Shown here: piece after piece, positions 48,854 through 58,522 of the stretch
Layout: every line of letters starts with the position of its first letter
How positions within the stretch are numbered: the first letter of the stretch is position 1
Assembly: GCA_003222675.1 (NCBI GenBank)
Contig: QHWT01000072.1
Location: forward strand, 102,338 to 166,337
Source: Acidobacteriota bacterium
GTDB taxonomy: Bacteria; Acidobacteriota; Vicinamibacteria; Vicinamibacterales; 2-12-FULL-66-21
Length of the DNA: 64,000 nt
Direction: 5' to 3'
Program-made: the position numbers and the translations under genes
Notes under the pieces: model-generated
The model's database searches: none
Told to the model about the DNA's origin: nothing
Seen by the model: the letters and a program-made list of their open reading frames with translations, nothing else

Positions 48854-48865
48854 TGGCGTCCCCAA
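48854..48865. other. left attachment-site core
   Basis: TGGCGTCCCCAA, identical to the complement of the tRNA-Glu 3' end including CCA. Similarity continues weakly (GGG..AT..GGA.CC against the T-arm), as expected of an attachment copy. Confidence 0.65.
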
Positions 48866-49058
48866 TGGGTATCGGATCCTGCCCGACAGAGCAACGGCTA
48901 CTGATTGCGGCCGCATAAACGGCGCTAGAATCCACTTTCGGCGGCACGGGCTTGCAAACCGCGTCCGCGCTTCTCCTCGGGGCGCGGCTGCCGCCGAATC
49001 TTCCTTTTCCCCCCATCACCCGAGGATCTCTACCGCTGCGCCCGAGGAAGCAGCGTAC

Positions 49059-49547
49059 ATGGCACGGCCGCATCTATCGTTTCTTCCCAATCTAAAAACC
49101 ATTGAACGCGAGTACAAAGCCGGCGATCTGACCGCGCTGTATCTCGCCCTCGGCGTTCTGTACGAGCGACGCGACATACCAAACTGGCTATGGATCGCGC
49201 TCATGAATGCTGTGGACCAATTACTCAGGCAGCGGAAGCTGAATCGCAAAATGGATCAACTCAGCGATCTGCGAGCACGGGCTGAACACCTTGGCCGTTA
49301 CTTGATGGTGGAGCGCTGTTTAAAAGACGGCATGGCACCGAATGCCGCATATCAGGCCGTGCGCGATGAACGCGAACGGATCACCGGGATTTCGGTCACG
49401 CCAGGTGCCATTCGCCAAAGCTATCGTCGCCTTGCTCGTCAAAAGCGAACGCTCGGAAGTCTTGTCCGCATGGGCGCTCTCGAGGGTGAGAAGTATGCCC
49501 TTTCGGTCTTGCGTACAAAATCCCGCGTAATCGGTACCCGCAAATAA
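49059..49547 (+). CDS. hypothetical protein, helical and basic (first gene of the element)
   Basis: 162 aa, all-helical prediction and strongly basic. MARPHLSFLPNLKTIEREYK, DIPNWLWIALMNAVDQLL, ALEHLGRYLMVERCL-like and VTPGAIRQSYRRLARQKRTL suggest a DNA-associated protein; GAIRQSYRRL could be a recognition helix. No family recognised. It is first inside the left attachment site. The ATG at 49059 fits; the open frame upstream crosses the junction. Confidence 0.6.
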   Translation: MARPHLSFLPNLKTIEREYKAGDLTALYLALGVLYERRDIPNWLWIALMNAVDQLLRQRKLNRKMDQLSDLRARAEHLGRYLMVERCLKDGMAPNAAYQAVRDERERITGISVTPGAIRQSYRRLARQKRTLGSLVRMGALEGEKYALSVLRTKSRVIGTRK

Positions 49548-49588
49548 GTACCTACCTACCCGCGGCCAGTCCTGTTTAGCCTTTCGGA

Positions 49589-49789
49589 ATGCGGTTTCCG
49601 AAAGACCTCATCGAGACGGCTGACGCGGCCCGCATCCTCGGGGTGACTCCCGACGCCGTCCGACAAATGGCCAGGCGAGGCGACCTGCGCGTGCAGTTCA
49701 CGAGTCCGCGCGGTTGGCGCTTGTACCATCGCGCCGTGGTGGAACGGCTCGCCGCTGTGCGACGACGCTTCGCGGACGATGCCGCGTAG
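49589..49789 (+). CDS. excisionase-like helix-turn-helix protein
   Basis: 66 aa. LIETADAARILGVTPDAVRQ, MARRGDLRV and SPRGWRLYHRAVVERLAA match the MerR/AlpA-like HTH_17 domain used by excisionases and small phage regulators. Probably binds the attachment site to aid excision with the serine recombinase, or regulates early genes. Four short genes in a row start here. Confidence 0.75.
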   Translation: MRFPKDLIETADAARILGVTPDAVRQMARRGDLRVQFTSPRGWRLYHRAVVERLAAVRRRFADDAA

Positions 49790-49800
49790 TCGAGTGGACC

Positions 49801-49992
49801 ATGGGAGAAAACGCCGAGGACCCAGGACCACCGGACGTGCGCGCCGAGTACGACCGTCAGCTTGCGGAACGGCTCGCCGAGTTGCTCGTCATCGAGCACC
49901 GACGGCGTGCGGCCCTCCGCGCAAACGTCGACGGCCCCGACGCCGCGGCACACCCCCCGACACACAAAGGCGGCGCGCAGGACACCACGTGA
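49801..49992 (+). CDS. small hypothetical protein
   Basis: 63 aa, acidic, central helix VRAEYDRQLAERLAELLVIE HRRRAALR-type, no signal or membrane segment. Starts 11 bases after the excisionase-like gene and its stop overlaps the GTG of the replication gene (GTGA). Unknown function. Confidence 0.55.
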   Translation: MGENAEDPGPPDVRAEYDRQLAERLAELLVIEHRRRAALRANVDGPDAAAHPPTHKGGAQDTT

Positions 49993-50798
49993 GCTTCGAC
50001 GCGATGAAACGCGTCTACGCGTCGCACCTCGAGCACTCTCTCCGCTTTCTGGCAATCACATTGGCGTGGTTTGCAAACGATGACGGCAGTCGCGTGTTTC
50101 CAAGCGTCGAGACGCTGAGCGATTACCTTGGAGTCAGCGATCGCCAGGTGCGGGCGGGTCTGAGTCGATTGCGTGACTTGGAGGTGCTCCTCGTCGAGCA
50201 ATCCGGCGGAGGTACCGGCCGCAGTACGCGATATCGCATCAACCTGCCGGTCCTCGAGCAGATTCCGCCGCCGCGGAAACACCGCGTGGTGAGCTCGACG
50301 ACAGTTCTCAGACACCGCGAAAAAATGGGCCGCAAACCCGGAAGTCTACTTCAGGGTTTAACGTCCGTAAACATTGACGAATCTAGTGTCCCGGGATCTG
50401 TCCCTCAGGGACAAACCCTGAAGTGTACTTCCGCGAACCCTGAAGCCGGCTTCCGCCAAACCCTGAAGCCGGCTTCCGCGGAACCCGGAAGTGTACTTCC
50501 GCGAACCCTGAAGCCTACTTCAGGGGATCAGTACATAGATCCGTCAATTGATCCCCCAGTGGATCCGTCACGGAGCGTACATAAAGATCACCGCGCGCGC
50601 GCAAACGCCGCTGCGCGGGATTCTCTCGCTGATAAAAGCAAGCATCCCTCTCCTCAGTCGCAGCGCCTGGCCGACGATCCCGCAGCGCTCGAGCGCGTCA
50701 AACAGCAACTCGACGAAGTCAAGAAACAGCTTCGAATCAAAACGATCGCGCCCCCGATCGTGTCCAAACGAGCGAAGGCGCGATATCCGCGGCAATGA
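49989..50798 (+). CDS. replication-initiator-like HTH protein containing iterons
   Basis: 269 aa from a GTG coupled to the previous stop. Residues about 8-80 (HSLRFLAITLAWFANDDGSR, VFPSVETLSDYLGVSDRQVR, AGLSRLRDLEVL) form a winged helix like those of phage replication proteins (DnaD/lambda O-like helix-turn-helix_36 type). A disordered middle (about 110-190) is encoded by DNA iterons; a C-terminal helix (LERVKQQLDEVKKQLRIK) ends it. Layout parallels lambda O, where the origin lies inside the initiator gene. Inferred role: binds the iterons and recruits host helicase. Confidence 0.65.
   Translation: MSFDAMKRVYASHLEHSLRFLAITLAWFANDDGSRVFPSVETLSDYLGVSDRQVRAGLSRLRDLEVLLVEQSGGGTGRSTRYRINLPVLEQIPPPRKHRVVSSTTVLRHREKMGRKPGSLLQGLTSVNIDESSVPGSVPQGQTLKCTSANPEAGFRQTLKPASAEPGSVLPRTLKPTSGDQYIDPSIDPPVDPSRSVHKDHRARANAAARDSLADKSKHPSPQSQRLADDPAALERVKQQLDEVKKQLRIKTIAPPIVSKRAKARYPRQ
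50334..50526. repeat. iteron array, candidate replication origin
   Basis: Units AACCCTGAAGnnnnCTTCCGC begin at 50414, 50436, 50459, 50482 and 50504 (spacing 22, 23, 23, 22), each with an inner GAAG-CTTC dyad; a separate unit at 50334-50360 is a longer palindrome (AAACCC...GGGTTT). TGTCCCTCAGGGACA (50400-50414) is a perfect palindrome between them. Spacing not divisible by three shows that DNA, not protein sequence, is conserved. Confidence 0.75.
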
Positions 50799-50819
50799 CG
50801 ACCAACCGAGGAGACCGTG

Positions 50820-51029
50820 ATGCCCACACATGAAGCCGCGATCGTCGCTGAAGCCCGACGCGTCGCGCGGTTACAGGAGCGGCAGCGACGCTTTCGACGC
50901 GAGCTGAAGGCGTGCGCCGCGGAGCTCAAGACCGCGAAGAAAAATCTGCGCGTCCTGGCGTCCGCCGCGCGCGATCCGTTCGAGCAATCACCGCCGCTGC
51001 GCGTCTTCGGCGAGCGCGCCGGGGGCTAG
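50820..51029 (+). CDS. small basic coiled-coil protein
   Basis: 69 aa after GAGGAG. A single long basic helix, EARRVARLQERQRRFRRELK then ACAAELKTAKKNLRVL. Possibly DNA- or protein-binding. It follows the initiator gene by 21 bases, so likely the same transcript. Confidence 0.6.
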   Translation: MPTHEAAIVAEARRVARLQERQRRFRRELKACAAELKTAKKNLRVLASAARDPFEQSPPLRVFGERAGG

Positions 51030-51580
51030 ATGGCGACGCCGGCGCCGACGCGATCGCCACGGCGCCACGGCGCCACGGCCGGCGCGCCTGTGAGGACCTG
51101 CAATGGCTCGAGCTCGTCACGGCGCAGAGCAACGGGCCGGGGAAAATCGACGCTCTGGAGCCTGCACGAGGCCTGGCGGGACACGGCGAGCACCTTTTCC
51201 GAAAAACCGGGGGAGGCGTCAGCTTTCGCGTAAGGGGGCAGGACGACGTGACTGTTGCACCGAATCCGCCATCGCCGCGGCGAGGCCGCCGTGTGTGCTT
51301 CTGGATGGCCGGTGAGGCGGGACGAAAAGCAAACGGGCGACGTTGACGAAGACAATGTTGACGGCGCTCGACGCGCTCAGCCTGGAGTTGTTCGATCGCC
51401 GTGCCCGTCAGGCGCCCGTCGCCGTCGATCGGCGCGCCTCCGCAGGCGGCCGGCGCCGCTATGACGATGCCCGCACGGCCGTGTTGTCGACCGTCCTCGA
51501 GGCGCAGCGTCGCCGGCGGCGATCGCCCGATTTGAAAACCCGTCCAATCTGAAACTTTTGAATTCGCGGTCGCATACAGA

Positions 51581-51728
51581 GGGGGAGGCTGAGGTTCTGA
51601 GGCGATGATCTGTAGAAAACGCGATACCCCAGGGGTCCAAAGCAGTGCGGCACCCACGCGACGACGCCTAGGCCCCCAGGGGATAGGCATTTTCTACAAT
51701 CGTTTCACCTAAGAACCCTGAGCCCCCC
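51581..51728. repeat. long imperfect inverted repeat, potential 148-base hairpin
   Basis: Left arm 51581-51635 and right arm 51673-51728 are inverted copies; exact blocks include GTAGAAAA (51612-51619) with TTTTCTAC (51690-51697), CCCC/GGGG at the base of the loop and GGTTCT/AGAACC outside. No ORF. It could be a packaging or nicking site, a single-strand origin, or a structured RNA. Confidence 0.65.
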
Positions 51729-51767
51729 GTCGCTGTCAACGTGCAGCAAATGAATTCGTGAGTTCGC

Positions 51768-51783
51768 CGGTGTACGTACACCG
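51768..51783. promoter_or_regulatory. perfect 16-bp palindrome, candidate operator
   Basis: CGGTGTACGTACACCG lies 28 bases before the start of the XRE-like regulator gene, where an autoregulatory operator is expected. Confidence 0.55.
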
Positions 51784-51811
51784 CAGCGGACTGGCCTGAA
51801 AATCTTTTCCT

Positions 51812-52114
51812 ATGCACGACAAGCCTTCTGCGCAGCAACTCAGTGACGCGCTCATCGCCGCGATTCGGACGTCGGACTACCGCGGGTACGCCATCGCGTA
51901 TGCGATCGGCGTGTCGCCGTCGCAGTTGTCCGCGTGGGTGAATCGGATTCAACCGGTACGCGCGGATGATGCCCGCGTACGTAAGCTTGCCGCCCTGATG
52001 GGCGTTGAGACGTCCGATGCGTTCCGACCGTGGCGCAGCACAACTCCATCCACGGTCGGGACCGCCGGCGTCGAGTTCCGCGGCGGCCGTCGAGACCCTA
52101 TCTGGAGACTCTGA
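51812..52114 (+). CDS. XRE-like helix-turn-helix regulator
   Basis: 100 aa. Helices LSDALIAAIRTSDYRGYAIA, YAIGVSPSQLSAWVN and DARVRKLAALMGV give a lambda-repressor-like DNA-binding domain (recognition helix SPSQLSAWVN). The C-terminal 30 residues are unstructured. Placed before the structural-like genes and behind a perfect palindrome, it probably controls its own promoter and the late block. Confidence 0.7.
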   Translation: MHDKPSAQQLSDALIAAIRTSDYRGYAIAYAIGVSPSQLSAWVNRIQPVRADDARVRKLAALMGVETSDAFRPWRSTTPSTVGTAGVEFRGGRRDPIWRL

Positions 52115-52118
52115 CCGA

Positions 52119-52595
52119 ATGTCCACCAAACCCGATTTCCGATTTGCCCACATCCGCGCATCCGTCGCCAGCGAGATGTTCGCGTTCGCGCCCGATCACG
52201 TGCTGGAGCTCGCGCCCGGCGCGACGCGCTGGCCGGACAGCCTCCGCGGGCTCCTGTTCAACGGCCACACCGCGGACCTCCTCGAGACGCGGCCGACCTG
52301 GTGTCGGCGGACAATCGTCATCGACCCGGCGACATTCCGCAGCGTGCCCCCGCCGGCGCCGACCTCGGAGCCGTTGCTCGACGAAGCGGCGGTCTGCGCG
52401 CGGCTCGGCCTCACGGCGGCCGCCTTCCAGCGTTTGGCGCTCAGTCGTGGCTTCCCCCATAACCGATCGACCCGGTTCGCGTTCAACCACGAGACGAACA
52501 GCAGCACGTACGCGCCGCTCTGGGTGGCCCGGGAAGTCGACAACTGGTACGCCGGCATTCGCGCGCTCGCGCCGGTCGCTGGGCAATCGTTGTGA
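52119..52595 (+). CDS. hypothetical protein of the element
   Basis: 158 aa. ASEMFAFAPDHVLELAPGAT, RPTWCRRTIVIDPATFRS, DEAAVCARLGLTAAAFQRLA (HTH-like) and APLWVAREVDNWYAGI. No family recognised; mixed alpha/beta and soluble. It starts 4 bases after the regulator and its stop overlaps the protease gene (GTGA). Confidence 0.55.
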   Translation: MSTKPDFRFAHIRASVASEMFAFAPDHVLELAPGATRWPDSLRGLLFNGHTADLLETRPTWCRRTIVIDPATFRSVPPPAPTSEPLLDEAAVCARLGLTAAAFQRLALSRGFPHNRSTRFAFNHETNSSTYAPLWVAREVDNWYAGIRALAPVAGQSL

Positions 52596-53302
52596 CCCCG
52601 TACGAAACGGCCACGAAGCGCGCCGGTCTACCGCCCTGGCTGCCGGCCGGGTACGCGCGTGTGCTCGCCTGGCGCACCCGACCGGAACTGTGCGCCCGCT
52701 GTCACCGGCGCGCGGCGGACATCCTCGAGGGCACGCAGGCGCTGTGCCGCGGCTGTCACACGACGGGGCGGGGCGACGCCGCCACACGCCAGCGGCAGCA
52801 CCGCCAGGCCGCGATCGAAGTCAGTCTTCGCCAGGACGACACGGGACGCGGGGTCGTCGGATTGGCCGTGCCATTTGGCGAGCCGGTTGAACTGAAGGCC
52901 GGGCACTGGGAGCAGTTCGAGCGGGGCGCGTTCCGCTACAGTCCGACTCTGGTCCCGTTGACGCGGAGTCACGGCGGTCCGGAAATCGCGCGGGCGCGCG
53001 CCTTTGAATTGCCGCACGGCTTGTTCTTCGAAGCGTCCGATCTGCGCCATCAGGCGGATGTGCTCCGCGGGGCGTCGCTCGTCTCCATTGCCTTCGATCG
53101 CGACAACGTGCAGTCCACCTACGAATCGTTCCGCGGCGGCCGCTTGCGCCGCATTCACGAAGCCCGGTTGAGCCAAATCTCGCTAGTCGCCTCGCCGGCC
53201 TATCGCATGACGTGGGCCGCGGCCCGAACGCCGGAGGCCTGGCAGAAGGTGTACCGCGGTATGCAGGCCGCGCTCGATCGCATCGTCGAGGAGTGCGCGT
53301 GA
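52592..53302 (+). CDS. HK97-type prohead protease with N-terminal zinc ribbon
   Basis: 236 aa. Residues about 32-56 (CARCHRRAADILEGTQALCRGC) are a CxxC...CxxC zinc ribbon. Residues about 85-215 match the HK97 prohead protease fold: VVGLAVPFGEPVELKAGHWE, QFERGAFRYS, PLTRSHGGPEIARA with the likely catalytic His, DVLRGASLVSIAFD with the nucleophile Ser, and EARLSQISLVASPAYRMT. In phages it cleaves capsid protein during maturation. No capsid gene is seen nearby, so it may process a helper phage's capsid or have another use. Confidence 0.75.
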   Translation: MTPYETATKRAGLPPWLPAGYARVLAWRTRPELCARCHRRAADILEGTQALCRGCHTTGRGDAATRQRQHRQAAIEVSLRQDDTGRGVVGLAVPFGEPVELKAGHWEQFERGAFRYSPTLVPLTRSHGGPEIARARAFELPHGLFFEASDLRHQADVLRGASLVSIAFDRDNVQSTYESFRGGRLRRIHEARLSQISLVASPAYRMTWAAARTPEAWQKVYRGMQAALDRIVEECA

Positions 53303-53448
53303 CGGCCACGGTGTGCCTGATCGCCGGCTTCGTGCTCGCGGTCCTCGGGATCGCGCTGTGGTCACTCCCGGCAGCGTGTCTCGTCGCCGGCGTGACGCTG
53401 TTTATCAGTGGCGGCCTCGAGCATCGGCAGCAGGCGCCGCGCAAGTAA
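53299..53448 (+). CDS. small two-helix membrane protein, holin-like
   Basis: 49 aa: two hydrophobic helices (VCLIAGFVLAVLGIAL and PAACLVAGVTLFISGG) and a charged tail HRQQAPRK. GTG start coupled to the protease gene (GTGA). Size and layout fit a holin or a small membrane protein of a phage-like element; no direct proof. Confidence 0.55.
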   Translation: MTATVCLIAGFVLAVLGIALWSLPAACLVAGVTLFISGGLEHRQQAPRK

Positions 53449-53454
53449 GGGGGA

Positions 53455-53856
53455 ATGCCCATGGAACCCATCGCCGTCCTGCCGCGCGCGCTGCTCGACG
53501 CATACGCGGCCTTTCATATCCACGCGCGCGCGCTCTTCGACGTGCTCAACGCGCAACACCGGGCCGGCCATCTGCGCGCGAGCGCCGAGGATGTCGCGGC
53601 CATTCAGACCGCCACGGACGCGTTCAACGCAATCGGCGCGGAATCCCGGCGGGCCAATGCGACAGTCGCCGAGCGCCAGGCATGGCTCAAGACCGTCCAC
53701 ACGGCGCTCGACCGCCGCGCGTCGCAAGCGATCGATCTGAACATCAACCTGGCCCCCAAAGGCCGGATGCTCAAGGCCGTGACGCGGAACGCACAGGGCC
53801 AGGTCGAGATGGTGATCGAGACGCCGATCAACGATGACCCCGTGAAAGGTGAGTGA
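53455..53856 (+). CDS. hypothetical element protein
   Basis: 133 aa. Long helices in the first 90 residues (PRALLDAYAAFHIHARALFD, ASAEDVAAIQTATDAFNAIG), then a strand-rich end (GQVEMVIETPIND). Soluble, no family recognised; in a row of structural-like genes with small gaps. Confidence 0.55.
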   Translation: MPMEPIAVLPRALLDAYAAFHIHARALFDVLNAQHRAGHLRASAEDVAAIQTATDAFNAIGAESRRANATVAERQAWLKTVHTALDRRASQAIDLNINLAPKGRMLKAVTRNAQGQVEMVIETPINDDPVKGE

Positions 53857-53860
53857 GTGA

Positions 53861-54229
53861 ATGGGAACGAAGGATGATTTCCGCGGCGTCGGCTACTGGA
53901 ATGAAACGCTCGTCGCGTCCGCGGCACGCACGACGACCGGCAACACCGGCAACATTTTCGGCTACGGCGCGGCGACGTCGCTGCGCGTGCTGCTGGACGT
54001 CTCGGCCGCGTCCGGCACGACGCCGTCCCTGACCGTGCTCGTCGAAGACAGCTTCGACGGCGGCACCAACTGGAACACGATCGGCACGTTCGCGGCGAAG
54101 ACCGCGGTCAGCCGCGAAGCGATCAACATCACGACGCCGTTCAGCGAGTTGATCCGCGTGAGCTGGACGATCACCGGCACGACGCCGTCGTTCACGTTCA
54201 GCGTGAACACGATCGCCCGCACGCGGTAA
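53861..54229 (+). CDS. virion-like beta-sandwich protein
   Basis: 122 aa, beta-rich and Thr/Ser/Gly-rich: LVASAARTTTGNTGNIFGYG, LRVLLDVSAASGTTPSLTVL, EDSFDGGTNWNTIGTFAA, ITGTTPSFTFSVNTIAR. Resembles small phage decoration or tail-associated proteins by composition only. Starts 4 bases after the preceding stop with GGTGAG upstream. Confidence 0.5.
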   Translation: MGTKDDFRGVGYWNETLVASAARTTTGNTGNIFGYGAATSLRVLLDVSAASGTTPSLTVLVEDSFDGGTNWNTIGTFAAKTAVSREAINITTPFSELIRVSWTITGTTPSFTFSVNTIARTR

Positions 54230-54233
54230 GCGG

Positions 54234-55409
54234 ATGGCACCTCCGAGCACGCCGGCAACGCCGACACCTGCGGACGGCGCCACGGCTGTCTCTGGGAACG
54301 CGCCGCCGGCCTTCACCTGGACCGCCCCGGGCGCGACCTCGTGTGAGATGTATTTTGGCCCATTCCCGCCGGGCGGCGATTCGATCATCGGCGGCGTGCG
54401 ATTTCCGGCGCAGGGGTTTGCGAGTCCTTGGCCGCCGCTCACCTGGACGCGCAACGGCGTCGGGAGTCTCTCGGGCGGCACGTTCACGTTTGACGAAGAA
54501 CCCAATACGGCCGGCGTGCAGGCCATGGCGCCGCTGAAGCGCGCGAAACGCTTCTACTGGCAGGTGTACGCGAGTAACGCCGACGGCACGACCGCCGGCC
54601 CGGTCTGGTCCTTCGTGACGGACGGCGCCGACGCGCCGGTACTGGTTGCCCCGGACAACGCGTCCGTGACGGATCTCAATCCGACGCTGTCGTGGAGTGC
54701 CGTCGGGGCCGAGTCGTATGACGTCTTCTTCGGCACCGTGAACCCGCCGCCGCTCGTGTCGTCGGGTCAGGCGGCGAGCGGGTACACGCCCGCAGGACCG
54801 CTGATTGATCAGCAAACGTATTACTGGCAGATCGTCGCCAAGGTTGGCGACGCCACGACGGCGGGATCTGTGTGGAGTTTCACCGCCGATGCCACTGCGG
54901 GGGACATCTTGGTTCTAACGAAAGACGTGACGACGCACGACATCGTGAACACCGGCGCCGCCACGACTGCGTGGTCCTACACCGTCCCGGGCGGCACGTT
55001 ATCGACGGATCGGGCGCTGCGGCTCACGGTCACCGGCGACTATCTCAATAACAGCGGGAGCAGTGACACCTTCGTCGCGCGCGTGAAGTTCGGCGGCGTG
55101 CAGATCGCCACACTGGTGTGCAACACCGTGCCGACGAACGCGAATCGTCGGGCGTTGCTGCTCGAGGCGCTGATCTCGGCTGCGGGCACGACGAATGCGC
55201 AGACGGTTCGAGGACGGACGTCGTTAGGGGTGACCGGCTCGAACAGCGGCTCCGGCGATGTGCCGGCCTTTGGCGAAATGCATGATGTGCACAACGCGCT
55301 GACGGTTGATTCCACGGTGAATCAAACGCTGCTGGTTGAGTTTGACCACACCGCGGCGAACGCGAACCTGAGCGCGCGCACGCTGGCGGTGTGGGTCGAG
55401 AAGTTGTGA
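54234..55409 (+). CDS. surface or tail-fibre-like protein with FnIII-type domains
   Basis: 391 aa. Two fibronectin-III-like repeats: PTPADGATAVSGNAPPAFTW...KRFYWQVYASNADG..GPVWSFVT and VLVAPDNASVTDLNPTLSW...QTYYWQIVAKVGDA..GSVWSFTA. The C-terminal 170 residues are a beta-rich domain (ALRLTVTGDYLNNSGSSDTF, VARVKFGGVQIATLVCNTVP) such as occurs on virion surfaces. Starts 4 bases after the previous stop. Likely a decoration or receptor-binding protein; inference. Confidence 0.6.
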   Translation: MAPPSTPATPTPADGATAVSGNAPPAFTWTAPGATSCEMYFGPFPPGGDSIIGGVRFPAQGFASPWPPLTWTRNGVGSLSGGTFTFDEEPNTAGVQAMAPLKRAKRFYWQVYASNADGTTAGPVWSFVTDGADAPVLVAPDNASVTDLNPTLSWSAVGAESYDVFFGTVNPPPLVSSGQAASGYTPAGPLIDQQTYYWQIVAKVGDATTAGSVWSFTADATAGDILVLTKDVTTHDIVNTGAATTAWSYTVPGGTLSTDRALRLTVTGDYLNNSGSSDTFVARVKFGGVQIATLVCNTVPTNANRRALLLEALISAAGTTNAQTVRGRTSLGVTGSNSGSGDVPAFGEMHDVHNALTVDSTVNQTLLVEFDHTAANANLSARTLAVWVEKL

Positions 55410-55410
55410 T

Positions 55411-55650
55411 CTAGTGTTCGAGCAGCGCGACGACACTGCTCTCGGGGATCCGCGTCGTGCGCGGCGACAACGTGATCGCGCGCAGCTGCCCGGACGCAAT
55501 CAGTTTGCGGACGGTGTTGACGGTGCAATTGAGATGCACCGCGACCTCGGGCAGCGTCAACAGGCGCGTGCCCTCGAGGCGTAACGCTTGCTGATCGGGA
55601 TGCCGCCGATCGGCCGCGACGGGATCCGACACACGTATGTTAGGCTGCAC
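55411..55650 (-). CDS. helix-turn-helix protein, excisionase-type, on the opposite strand
   Basis: 79 aa. LLTLPEVAVHLNCTVNTVRK, LIASGQLRAITLSPRTTRI and PESSVVALLE match the HTH_17/excisionase fold. The only minus-strand gene within the element, convergent with the fibre-like gene (1-base gap). A terminator-like hairpin lies in its leader (55697-55745), which suggests attenuation. Confidence 0.7.
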   Translation of the reverse strand: MQPNIRVSDPVAADRRHPDQQALRLEGTRLLTLPEVAVHLNCTVNTVRKLIASGQLRAITLSPRTTRIPESSVVALLEH

Positions 55651-55696
55651 GTCGCCTGCGCATGGACGCGACTCGTTTCGTCAGCGTAAGGAAGTA

Positions 55697-55745
55697 GAAG
55701 AAAACGGCCCGGCGCCGCGTGATGATGGAAACGCCGCGCCAGGCC
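55697..55745 (-). terminator. Rho-independent-like hairpin in the leader of the minus-strand HTH gene
   Basis: On the minus strand GGCCTGGCGCGGCGT pairs with GCGCGGCGCCGGGCC-like sequence, followed by GTTTTCTTCT. No minus-strand gene lies upstream of it, so it can act only on leader transcripts of the HTH gene or on antisense RNA. Confidence 0.5.
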
Positions 55746-55835
55746 TGAGCAGTCAGCAAGCGTTCACCTTGCCGACGACGCCTGCACCAAAGTGTAGCAG
55801 GCCTCTCGCCGGCCTCTTTGCCAGAGGGAGGCCAC

Positions 55836-56066
55836 ATGGAACTCGTCAAAGATGCCCCGCTCCTCCCACACACGCCGTCGTCCGGCGAACGCGTGTACCG
55901 CTCGATCAATCGTCTGTCGTTGCTGTCGTCGTTGCTGTTCACGTCGAGCAGTGATGGCACCAACACGCTCGACGCCGATCACATGCGCGCGCTCTCGGAG
56001 TACCTCGAAGAGATTCGCGATGATCTACAGGAGGTGCACTGTGTGGACGACGGCGGTGTGCGATGA
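55836..56066 (+). CDS. small acidic hypothetical protein
   Basis: 76 aa, ATG with GAGGGAGG upstream. A helical middle (YRSINRLSLLSSLLFTSSSD) and an acidic helix (LSEYLEEIRDDLQEVH). Overlaps the next gene (ATGA). Confidence 0.55.
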   Translation: MELVKDAPLLPHTPSSGERVYRSINRLSLLSSLLFTSSSDGTNTLDADHMRALSEYLEEIRDDLQEVHCVDDGGVR

Positions 56067-56362
56067 CGGCCACGCTCGTCTCGTTCACGACGGACGAGCC
56101 TGCTGCAAAGGAACGCCAACTGAAGGACCGGTGGCGCCAGTGCTACGACGAGTTGCGCACCACGGCGCGCGCCGGCGTGCTCGCTCCGCGCGGGGGCGGC
56201 CCCACCAAAGATGCACTGGAGTCGATGTGGCACGCGCATGAGCGGTACACGAGACATCGCTGCGCCGGGTACTGGATCGCGTGGATGACGCGGAGCGTGC
56301 GCAGATCCTCCAGCAGTTGTACGGGCCGACCCGAACTAAGCTGCGGCACACCAGCGAACTGA
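56063..56362 (+). CDS. hypothetical protein, probably the first part of a frameshifted gene
   Basis: 99 aa. The start overlaps the previous stop. KERQLKDRWRQCYDELRTTA and KDALESMWHAHERYT are helical; after residue 64 the sequence becomes Cys/Arg/Ser-rich and odd. The next frame from about 56252 reads HETSLRRVLDRVDDAERAQI and joins smoothly to the ORF 56281-56481, so one gene of about 139 codons with a one-base shift is likely. Confidence 0.5.
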   Translation: MTATLVSFTTDEPAAKERQLKDRWRQCYDELRTTARAGVLAPRGGGPTKDALESMWHAHERYTRHRCAGYWIAWMTRSVRRSSSSCTGRPELSCGTPAN

Positions 56363-56481
56363 TCCCGCCCGAACGAAAACTGATCACCGACTATCGCGCG
56401 CTCGACGACCAGGCGCGCGCGATCGTGCGGCTGTTGATGGATCGCCTGGCCATCGTTCCTGATGCGGACGGGGCGCGATGA
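56281..56481 (+). CDS. hypothetical protein or second part of the frameshifted gene
   Basis: 66 aa from a GTG: DDAERAQILQQLYGPTRTKL, LIPPERKLITDYRALDDQAR, AIVRLLMDRLAIVP. Helical and well composed. It may be separate, with its own GTG start, or the true C-terminus of the 56063 gene. Confidence 0.5.
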   Translation: MDDAERAQILQQLYGPTRTKLRHTSELIPPERKLITDYRALDDQARAIVRLLMDRLAIVPDADGAR

Positions 56482-56603
56482 TGCGAGATCATCCGTTCAG
56501 CATCTGGACCTTAGGGGGGATTCCCGGAGGCGGCACAGGTGTCCCAGCACCCGGCGATCTTGAGTCGTGGGGCTCCACGTGGAGAACCGCGTCGCCGCAT
56601 TGA
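56478..56603 (+). CDS. possible small Gly/Pro-rich protein
   Basis: 41 aa starting at ATGATG that overlaps the preceding stop: MRDHPFSIWTLGGIPGGGTG VPAPGDLES-type composition. The end may be shifted, because another frame nearby reads VENRVAALNASMAKLNRR, a typical helix. Weak evidence. Confidence 0.3.
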   Translation: MMRDHPFSIWTLGGIPGGGTGVPAPGDLESWGSTWRTASPH

Positions 56604-56676
56604 ATGCCTCGATGGCCAAACTCAATCGGCGCTGACTTTCAAGTTGTCGAGGGAAGCGGGCGAACAAACCACAACG

Positions 56677-56754
56677 ATGATCCGACTGACATGGGCTATC
56701 GCGGCGCTCACGGTGATGATCGCCGTGCTGACGGCGGTAACGCTATGGAAATGA
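56677..56754 (+). CDS. possible single-helix membrane peptide
   Basis: 25 aa: MIRLTWAIAALTVMIAVLTA VTLWK, one membrane helix with a Lys end. It overlaps the start of the recombinase gene (10 bases). May be the membrane part of a larger broken accessory protein. Confidence 0.35.
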   Translation: MIRLTWAIAALTVMIAVLTAVTLWK

Positions 56755-58487
56755 TGATCGCTGCCATCTACGCTCGCAAGAGTACGGAACAAACCGGCAT
56801 GGTCGACGAACAGAAATCCGTCGCACGTCAGGTGGCGCACGCGCGTGACTACGCGCAGCGCAAAGGCTGGACGGTCGACGAGGCCTCCGTCTACATCGAC
56901 GACGGGATCTCCGGCGCCGAGTTCGCGAAACGTCCCGGCTTCGTCCGGCTGATGAACGCCCTGGCGCCGCGGCCGCGGTTTCAGGTCCTCGTCATGTCGG
57001 AGGAATCACGGCTGGGGGGCGAAGCGATCGAAACTGCGTACGCGCTCAAGCAGTTGCTGCGCGCCGGCGTGCGCGTGTTTTTCTATCTCGAGGACCGCGA
57101 GCGCACACTCGATACGCCGACCGACAAGATCATGCTGTCACTCGCCGCGTTCGCCGACGAACTCGAGCGCGAGAAAGCACGCCAGCGCACGTACGACGCA
57201 ATGCGGCGGAAAGTGGAACAGCGCCAGGTCACCGGCGGGCAGTGCTTCGGCTATCGCAACGTCGACGTGACGGCGGCCGGACCCGACGGCCGACCAAAAC
57301 GGCAATACGTGCGGCGCGAGCTCGAGGAGCACGAGGCGGCCGTCGTGCGTCAAATTTTTGAACTCTGTGCCATGGGGGAGGGGTTCAAGGAGATCACGAA
57401 GCGACTCAACGCCGATCGTGCACCGGCGCCGCGATCGCAGCAGGGGCGGCTGCGCGCTTGGACGCCGTCCTCGATCCGCGAAATTCTGCTCCGCGAGAGT
57501 TACCGCGGCGTGCTCGTCTGGAACAAGACGCGGAAGCGGAACGCGGACGGCCAGACCCGGCCAACCGCACGTCCGCCGTCGGAATGGCTGCGCATTCAGG
57601 CAGATGACCTACGGGTTGTCTCGGATGCGCTGTGGCAGGCCGCGCATACACAGCTTGCGAACCGACGCACGCGCTACGCAAAAACCGCGTCAGGCGCGGC
57701 GCAGGCGCTCGATCCGTGCGCCAGGCGCCGGAGCTATCTCCTGAGCGGCTTCGCGCGCTGCAACGTCTGCGGCGGCGCCATACAGGCCGTCTCGCGGTCG
57801 TCTACGACGGGACGGCTGTTCCGGTACGTCTGCGGCCAGTACGTGAACCGCGGCGAGCACGTCTGCGGCAATCGCCGCATGGCGCGGATGCAGACCGCCG
57901 ACGCGGCCATCCGGGAGCTGCTGGCGAACGAGGTGCTTCGGCCGGGCGTCCTGGAGCGGGCGCTCGACCTGGCACTCGAGACGCTCAGCGGCGATCGCCA
58001 GCAGGACGAACGCGAGCGGCAGCGGCGCGAGCTCGAGCAGCGACTCGCGAAGCTCGAAACGCAGCTCGCGAACCTGGCAGACACGGCGGCGCGCGGCGGC
58101 GCGGTACCGGTCATCCTCGAGGCGCTCACGCGCACCGACGACGAACGACGTGCGGTCCTGGCGCAGCTTGAGGCAGAAGCCCGTAACCGACCTGTTACGG
58201 CCATTCCAGCAACGGCCGCACTCCGGCGCGAGTTGCACACCTACGTGCGCGAGTGGGAGCAGCTGACAACAGCCACGACGGATCACGTGCGCGCGACGCG
58301 CGGCTTACTCGAAACGGTGCTCAGTCGTCGGATTGAGTTTCGGCCGTTCGATCGCGCCGATGGTGCCGCGATGTACGAGTTGATTGTTCCACTGCAGTTC
58401 GATCGCTTGCTGACGATCGCGGTCCCATCACTCGCTCGGGTAGGACTGGCGTCCCCAACGGGATTCGAACCCGTGTTTTGGCCTTGA
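56745..58487 (+). CDS. large serine recombinase (integrase of the element)
   Basis: 580 aa. The resolvase domain has the catalytic Ser in IYARKSTEQ (about residue 13), YIDDGISGAEFAKRPGFVRL and MLSLAAFADELEREKARQRT. Then the recombinase domain (HEAAVVRQIFELCAMGEGFK), the zinc ribbon CNVCGGAI...YVCG...HVCGN from residue 339, and a coiled coil (RRELEQRLAKLETQLANLA). It would insert and, with a directionality factor, excise the element. The last 14 codons (about LASPTGFEPVFWP) are the complement of tRNA-Glu, so the natural C-terminus may differ in the free form. Start could also be the ATG at 56754. Confidence 0.9.
   Translation: MEMMIAAIYARKSTEQTGMVDEQKSVARQVAHARDYAQRKGWTVDEASVYIDDGISGAEFAKRPGFVRLMNALAPRPRFQVLVMSEESRLGGEAIETAYALKQLLRAGVRVFFYLEDRERTLDTPTDKIMLSLAAFADELEREKARQRTYDAMRRKVEQRQVTGGQCFGYRNVDVTAAGPDGRPKRQYVRRELEEHEAAVVRQIFELCAMGEGFKEITKRLNADRAPAPRSQQGRLRAWTPSSIREILLRESYRGVLVWNKTRKRNADGQTRPTARPPSEWLRIQADDLRVVSDALWQAAHTQLANRRTRYAKTASGAAQALDPCARRRSYLLSGFARCNVCGGAIQAVSRSSTTGRLFRYVCGQYVNRGEHVCGNRRMARMQTADAAIRELLANEVLRPGVLERALDLALETLSGDRQQDERERQRRELEQRLAKLETQLANLADTAARGGAVPVILEALTRTDDERRAVLAQLEAEARNRPVTAIPATAALRRELHTYVREWEQLTTATTDHVRATRGLLETVLSRRIEFRPFDRADGAAMYELIVPLQFDRLLTIAVPSLARVGLASPTGFEPVFWP
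58447..58458. other. right attachment-site core in tRNA-Glu
   Basis: TGGCGTCCCCAA, identical to 48854-48865. Integration here leaves the tRNA whole. Confidence 0.65.
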
Positions 58488-58522
58488 AAGGGCCACGTCC
58501 TGGGCCTCTGGACGATGGGGAC
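58447..58522 (-). tRNA. tRNA-Glu(TTC), CCA encoded
   Basis: Acceptor GTCCCCA/TGGGGAC, D arm, anticodon arm GGCCCTTTCAAGGCC with anticodon TTC, T arm CGGGTTCGAATCCCG, then G and CCA. It is complete, 76 nt with CCA. The 3' end is the right attachment core of the 9.6-kb element, whose integrase gene overlaps it antisense. Confidence 0.93.

Follow-up and report, generated by a model that had tools for sequence, protein, structure and literature searches.

A dyad array inside an HTH_36 initiator gene as the putative core of a replication origin in an integrated element of an Acidobacteriota genome

In the genome of an Acidobacteriota bacterium, a gene for a replication initiator of an integrated element carries a series of regularly spaced palindromes within its coding sequence. 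Are these repeats kept for the peptide they encode, for the RNA or as DNA, and, if as DNA, which protein would bind them and for what function? We examined the question in the window (the whole 64-kb stretch of DNA analysed) and in relatives of the initiator gene.

Layout and reading frames of the dyad array

The initiator gene (49989–50798, plus strand, GTG start, 269 aa) contains six units of the form AACCC(T/G)GAAGnnnnCTTC, five of them in an array and one separate upstream. The separate unit 1 (50334–50359), located 79 bp upstream of the array, is a near-perfect 26-bp palindrome, AAACCCGGAAGTCTACTTCAGGGTTT. The array spans 50414–50525, its units starting at 50414, 50436, 50459, 50482 and 50504 with spacings of 22, 23, 23 and 22 bp: unit 2 (50414–50435; AACCCTGAAGTGTACTTCCGCG), unit 3 (50436–50458; AACCCTGAAGCCGGCTTCCGCCA), unit 4 (50459–50481; AACCCTGAAGCCGGCTTCCGCGG), unit 5 (50482–50503; AACCCGGAAGTGTACTTCCGCG) and unit 6 (50504–50525; AACCCTGAAGCCTACTTCAGGG). 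An earlier note on this DNA had described five iterons at 22–23 bp; the repeats are real and their spacing was given correctly, but the upstream unit brings their number to six. Placement on one helical face every two turns, claimed in the same note, holds approximately and not exactly, 22.5 bp corresponding to about 2.14 turns. The dyad symmetry within each unit, which had been thought to separate them from simple iterons, is present, but lambda iterons also have dyad symmetry and the distinction falls away.

The 810-bp gene contains six GAAG-N4-CTTC sites. In 20,000 shuffles, in which synonymous codons were permuted while the protein and codon usage were kept, the number of sites averaged 0.16 and was at most 4; none of the trials reached six. 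Other N4 dyads with 4-base arms form no cluster anywhere in the 64-kb window. Across the 7.16-Mb genome, units flanked by AACCC are limited to the initiator gene, plus one stray single site elsewhere.

All three codon frames are used by the units (registers 1, 2, 0, 2, 1 and 2 for units 1–6), and one DNA unit encodes the peptides NPEAGFR, TLKPAS or, in register 1, a proline followed by a stop, AACCCTGAAG being read there as CCC TGA. Exactly two units, precisely those in register 1 (units 1 and 5), possess CCCGGAAG instead of CCCTGAAG, a T-to-G replacement, and both have AACCCGGAAG. This is the pattern expected for an array kept as DNA, with coding merely avoiding stops. The array and its constraint at the DNA level are thereby established, in agreement with the earlier argument that 22 and 23 are not multiples of three. 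Selection of a repetitive peptide at the protein level could appeal to tandem coding repeats being common (many 21-bp arrays were found in a genome-wide scan), but it is contradicted by the three frames, which give different peptides from the same DNA, and by spacings without a codon period; the array-encoded region is also predicted to be disordered, and we give this explanation next to no credence. The locus is a clear example of DNA binding sites, putative here, overriding the peptide inside a gene, with a stop codon dodged by one base.

A candidate unwinding region (50527–50606) adjoins the array and is weakly enriched in AT (46% versus 41% for the gene); an AT-richer stretch is found at the same place in relatives (41 of 49 and 25 of 27 genes). 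GC skew, which had been suggested as a check, has no turning point at the array. The main array is also flanked by a 13-bp inverted repeat (92%), located at 50373–50385 (ATTGACGAATCTA) and 50536–50548 (TAGATCCGTCAAT).

The encoded protein and its element

The initiator comprises an N-terminal winged HTH (wHTH) domain, a linker encoded by the array and C-terminal helices. Its N-terminal part matches PF13730 (HTH_36) at E 6.9e-10, scoring 39 bits where the cut-off is 25; the domain covers residues 13–64 (50025–50180, plus strand), and the recognition helix corresponds approximately to residues 51–63, within SDRQVRAGLSRL. Two PHROG replication initiation families described as 'O-like' are matched as well (2.7e-12 and 2e-11), which bears out the reading of the gene as encoding an HTH replication protein. 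AlphaFold2 produced pLDDT values above 90 for most of residues 1–90 and of about 46–62 for residues 101–200, including the array-encoded part; the wHTH is predicted to be well folded and the array-encoded stretch to be a disordered linker. As the sequence of such a linker hardly matters, the DNA array would be free to run through all three frames.

Assignment to a narrower family is limited: the initiator has no Pfam match to Phage_rep_O at E 0.1, matching only the broad PHROG 'O-like' groups, and none to PF06970 (RepA_N). Its wHTH structural matches include 4pql and 4pt7, the former with a Z score of 8.9 that is tied with many unrelated wHTH proteins. No recognisable helicase-loader domain was found in the C-terminus, and no gene resembling DnaC/P was identified next to the initiator gene. 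The 12 genomes of the family contain no full-length close homolog besides the protein itself, while searches of IMG/VR, phages and plasmids gave weak N-terminal matches at most.

The 9.6-kb element (48854–58465) is integrated at tRNA-Glu and bounded by a 12-bp direct repeat. The putative attL (48854–48872; TGGCGTCCCCAA) repeats the 3′ end of the tRNA-Glu (TTC) gene (58447–58522, minus strand), which in turn forms the putative attR. An empty attachment site was not found in relatives, the flank matches consisting of the tRNA alone or starting beyond it. A large serine recombinase, or integrase, is encoded at 56604–58487 on the plus strand (PF00239, PF07508; phrog_95 integrase, 3.5e-84), and its ORF extends into the tRNA-Glu gene. 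A small MerR/HTH_17 excisionase-like protein is encoded upstream of the initiator (49589–49789, plus strand), and the element's other strand encodes a second excisionase-type HTH protein (55411–55650, minus strand; TIGR01764, 4e-8). A lone prohead-protease-like ORF (52592–53302) matches PF04586 at threshold and phrog_2263 with 1.4e-6, and has a weak match of the CXXCH type close to its N-terminus. Genes for terminase, portal or tail were not recognised among the proteins scanned. We infer that the element resembles a phage satellite or a remnant prophage.

Dyad arrays in related initiator genes

HTH domains from two groups, used as queries, fetched 157 loci, and a third query added 55. The array finder accepted any even-centred dyad repeated at 16–27 bp and scored it against the shuffles of each gene; in 110 of 166 relatives, the dyad array of the gene exceeded 95% of them. 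In 64 non-redundant genes (below 80% HTH identity), 98 of 138 spacings fell at 22–24 bp, a peak that is informative, whereas the range is not, as the finder is limited to its own spacing range. The spacings divisible by three numbered 44 of these 138, about a third, and hence have no codon period. In loci L205, L206, L207 and L209, a part of the array has an 18-bp pitch followed by 22/23 bp. The Leptospira p74 HTH gene contains no clear dyad array.

The N4 spacer is mostly kept in the dyads of relatives while the bases vary (GAAG, GCAA, GAAC, TAAA). Read from the centre outwards, half-sites include nnCTTC, nnTTGC, nTGTTCC, nnCTTTA and nnnGTCAC, the geometry being constant and the bases not. 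The HTH domains of L205 and L206 are 71% identical, yet their arrays consist of GCAA and GAAG dyads, respectively; their recognition helices are of the K-D-R-N (L205) and T-Q-R-N (L206) types. The earlier note had likened the locus to the lambda O gene, with the origin lying inside the initiator, and had proposed checking whether iterons persist in homologs while the encoded peptide drifts. The analogy with lambda O holds as a working principle, and homologous initiators have dyad arrays at the same place; the array layout does persist, but the DNA bases change together with the peptide. Among the homologs compared, none kept the peptide while losing the repeats.

In relatives, these comparisons point to a joint change of site and protein. 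Recognition helices starting with K-x-R-N pair with TTGC/TGC half-sites, and those starting with S/T-x-R-N with CTTC. A C at half-site position 6 is found in 21 of 25 genes whose recognition helix has Arg at the position of window residue 52 and in 12 of 29 without it (called bases; Fisher p 0.002). This association is exploratory: part of the data had already brought it to notice, the 55 added loci contributed few informative arrays, clades were partly corrected and the test of all columns was confounded. The initiator in the window, with Arg52 and C6, has the same combination. At this exploratory level, the association supports binding of the sites by the encoded protein. Column-by-column covariation, given a first look, was set aside as confounded by clade structure, and residue 52 with position 6 is the only pair quoted.

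The same data bear on an RNA-level explanation, in which the palindromes act as hairpins in the initiator mRNA and control translation, termination or plasmid copy number. The transcript indeed folds far better than its shuffles (z −8.7), but equally good folding is expected of RNA from any repeated DNA dyad array, and the fixed 22–24-bp spacing, the N4 spacer and bases that partly track the recognition helix are a better fit to protein–DNA contact. We consider control by hairpins very unlikely.

Another search ignored the protein and scanned 2.9 million viral contigs of IMG/VR for three GAAG-N4-CTTC units lying 8–14 bp apart. It returned 30 contigs with arrays, mostly with a pitch of 22–24 bp, and 27 of the 30 arrays use more than one frame. 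Of 28 ORFs covering such arrays, 24 have a match to HTH_36 and one to RepA_N; a match to the replication initiation protein phrog_270 was likewise obtained for 24 of the 28. Array searches by DNA alone thus retrieve replication initiators, and both the association of the arrays with HTH initiators and the conserved geometry of arrays in relatives are established. Loci L037, L022 and L017 are the closest in unit sequence, with CCCCTGAAG..CTTC-type units.

A genome-wide scan for the pattern was not counted as evidence on initiators, since Bacteroidales arrays located outside long ORFs, together with 21-bp coding repeats, made up the bulk of its output. In Bacteroidales (Bacteroides, Parabacteroides, Prevotella, Tannerella; L053–L170), GAAG-N4-CTTC arrays are numerous, with units spaced by exactly 22 or 23 bp, and lie mostly outside long ORFs and not in initiator genes. 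Their number per genome and their location lend some plausibility to a selfish or structural palindromic repeat of the REP/BIME type that has invaded a coding gene. The confinement of the AACCC-flanked unit to the initiator gene and one stray site speaks against this, as does the fact that arrays in viral contigs lie mostly within initiator genes, and such an invasion seems to us extremely improbable.

A putative origin within its own initiator gene

The reading that we consider very probable is that the array forms the core of the element's replication origin, located inside its own initiator gene and bound by the encoded wHTH. Each 12-bp GAAG-N4-CTTC dyad is probably occupied by a dimer of the protein through its N-terminal winged HTH, and dimers on adjacent sites, at a pitch of about 22.5 bp, would assemble into a nucleoprotein complex on the array. 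This complex may cause the adjacent DNA to melt and a helicase of the host or of a helper to be recruited; since we recognised no helicase loader, this step would depend on a factor of the host or of a helper.

Alternatively, the encoded HTH may bind the array mainly as an operator for autoregulation or copy control and not as an origin. Palindromic dyads that bind wHTH dimers typically serve as operators, and an integrated element could be silent. The array, however, is situated about 350 bp into the gene and not at its start, and the unit has no further genomic copies except the stray site. Widely differing phages also have arrays at this place of their initiator genes, and a precedent of the pPR9 type replicates. 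We regard a mainly regulatory array as unlikely.

Read as an origin core, the window array is an additional case of an arrangement already described in phages and a few plasmids and represented by lambda O, pSK41 RepA_N and pPR9. Lambda has four iterons in O, its Stx-type relatives six, an AT-rich tract lies beside them, and initiator dimers form the O-some on the iterons (PMC3985674, PMC7466680). In a lambdoid phage, iteron mutations leaving the O protein unchanged abolished replication (PMC7466680). The window gene shares with lambda O the location of iterons within the initiator gene. The iterons of lambda are 19 bp long and number four; the window protein belongs to HTH_36 without a Phage_rep_O match, and AT-richness is slight.

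A closer precedent than lambda O is provided by the pPR9/pUSA03 HTH_36 type and by pSK41 RepA_N. In pSK41, the origin is central in rep; its four Rep boxes are bound by the N-terminal wHTH of the initiator, and the protein can dispense with the linker peptide that the origin encodes (PMC5703833). Sites lie within the initiator gene in both cases; the window protein, however, lacks PF06970, and the likeness in fold is at the level of any wHTH. The N-terminal domain of the pPR9 protein is a phage-type pfam13730 HTH, its rep region supports a mini-replicon, and pUSA03 is of the same type (PMC5703833). In the rep gene of pUSA03, we found that the HTH is followed by four TGTC-N5-GACA dyads at a 23-bp pitch and then by an AT-rich stretch. 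The window gene resembles pPR9/pUSA03 rep in its N-terminal PF13730-type HTH, in dyads that follow the HTH inside the gene and in the 22–24-bp pitch, while the core sequence is different and the spacer is N4 instead of the N5 of pUSA03. Moreover, pPR9/pUSA03 represents a staphylococcal conjugative plasmid, and the C-terminus of its rep product, related to pSK41 Rep, has no match in the window protein. Phage HTH_36 and PHROG O-like initiators (phrog_270, 391, 678) share the HTH family and the place and spacing of the array, although many have other dyad bases and many are longer proteins. A pfam13730 replication protein has also been described in the helper prophage AH14a of a helper–satellite pair (PMC4936722).

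Beyond this locus, we hypothesize, at about even chances, that, throughout their class, HTH_36 initiators harbour their own binding sites in the coding sequence, with a fixed geometry (an even-centred dyad, mostly with an N4 spacer, at a pitch of about 22.5 bp), freely drifting bases and co-evolution of helix and site in one gene. What could be new is the combination, within one gene, of a fixed site geometry and a joint change of protein and site; our literature search, covering few subscription papers, found no published statement of it. If the hypothesis is true, the origin specificity of thousands of phages would be readable from one gene, which would amount to a natural code of protein–DNA recognition and would serve to mark origins and incompatibility. 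As array searches retrieve initiators, origins of uncultivated phages and satellites could be placed, and their specificity predicted, from a single gene. Should the pairing of helix and site be confirmed across the class, a recognition code for a large wHTH family could be tested directly.
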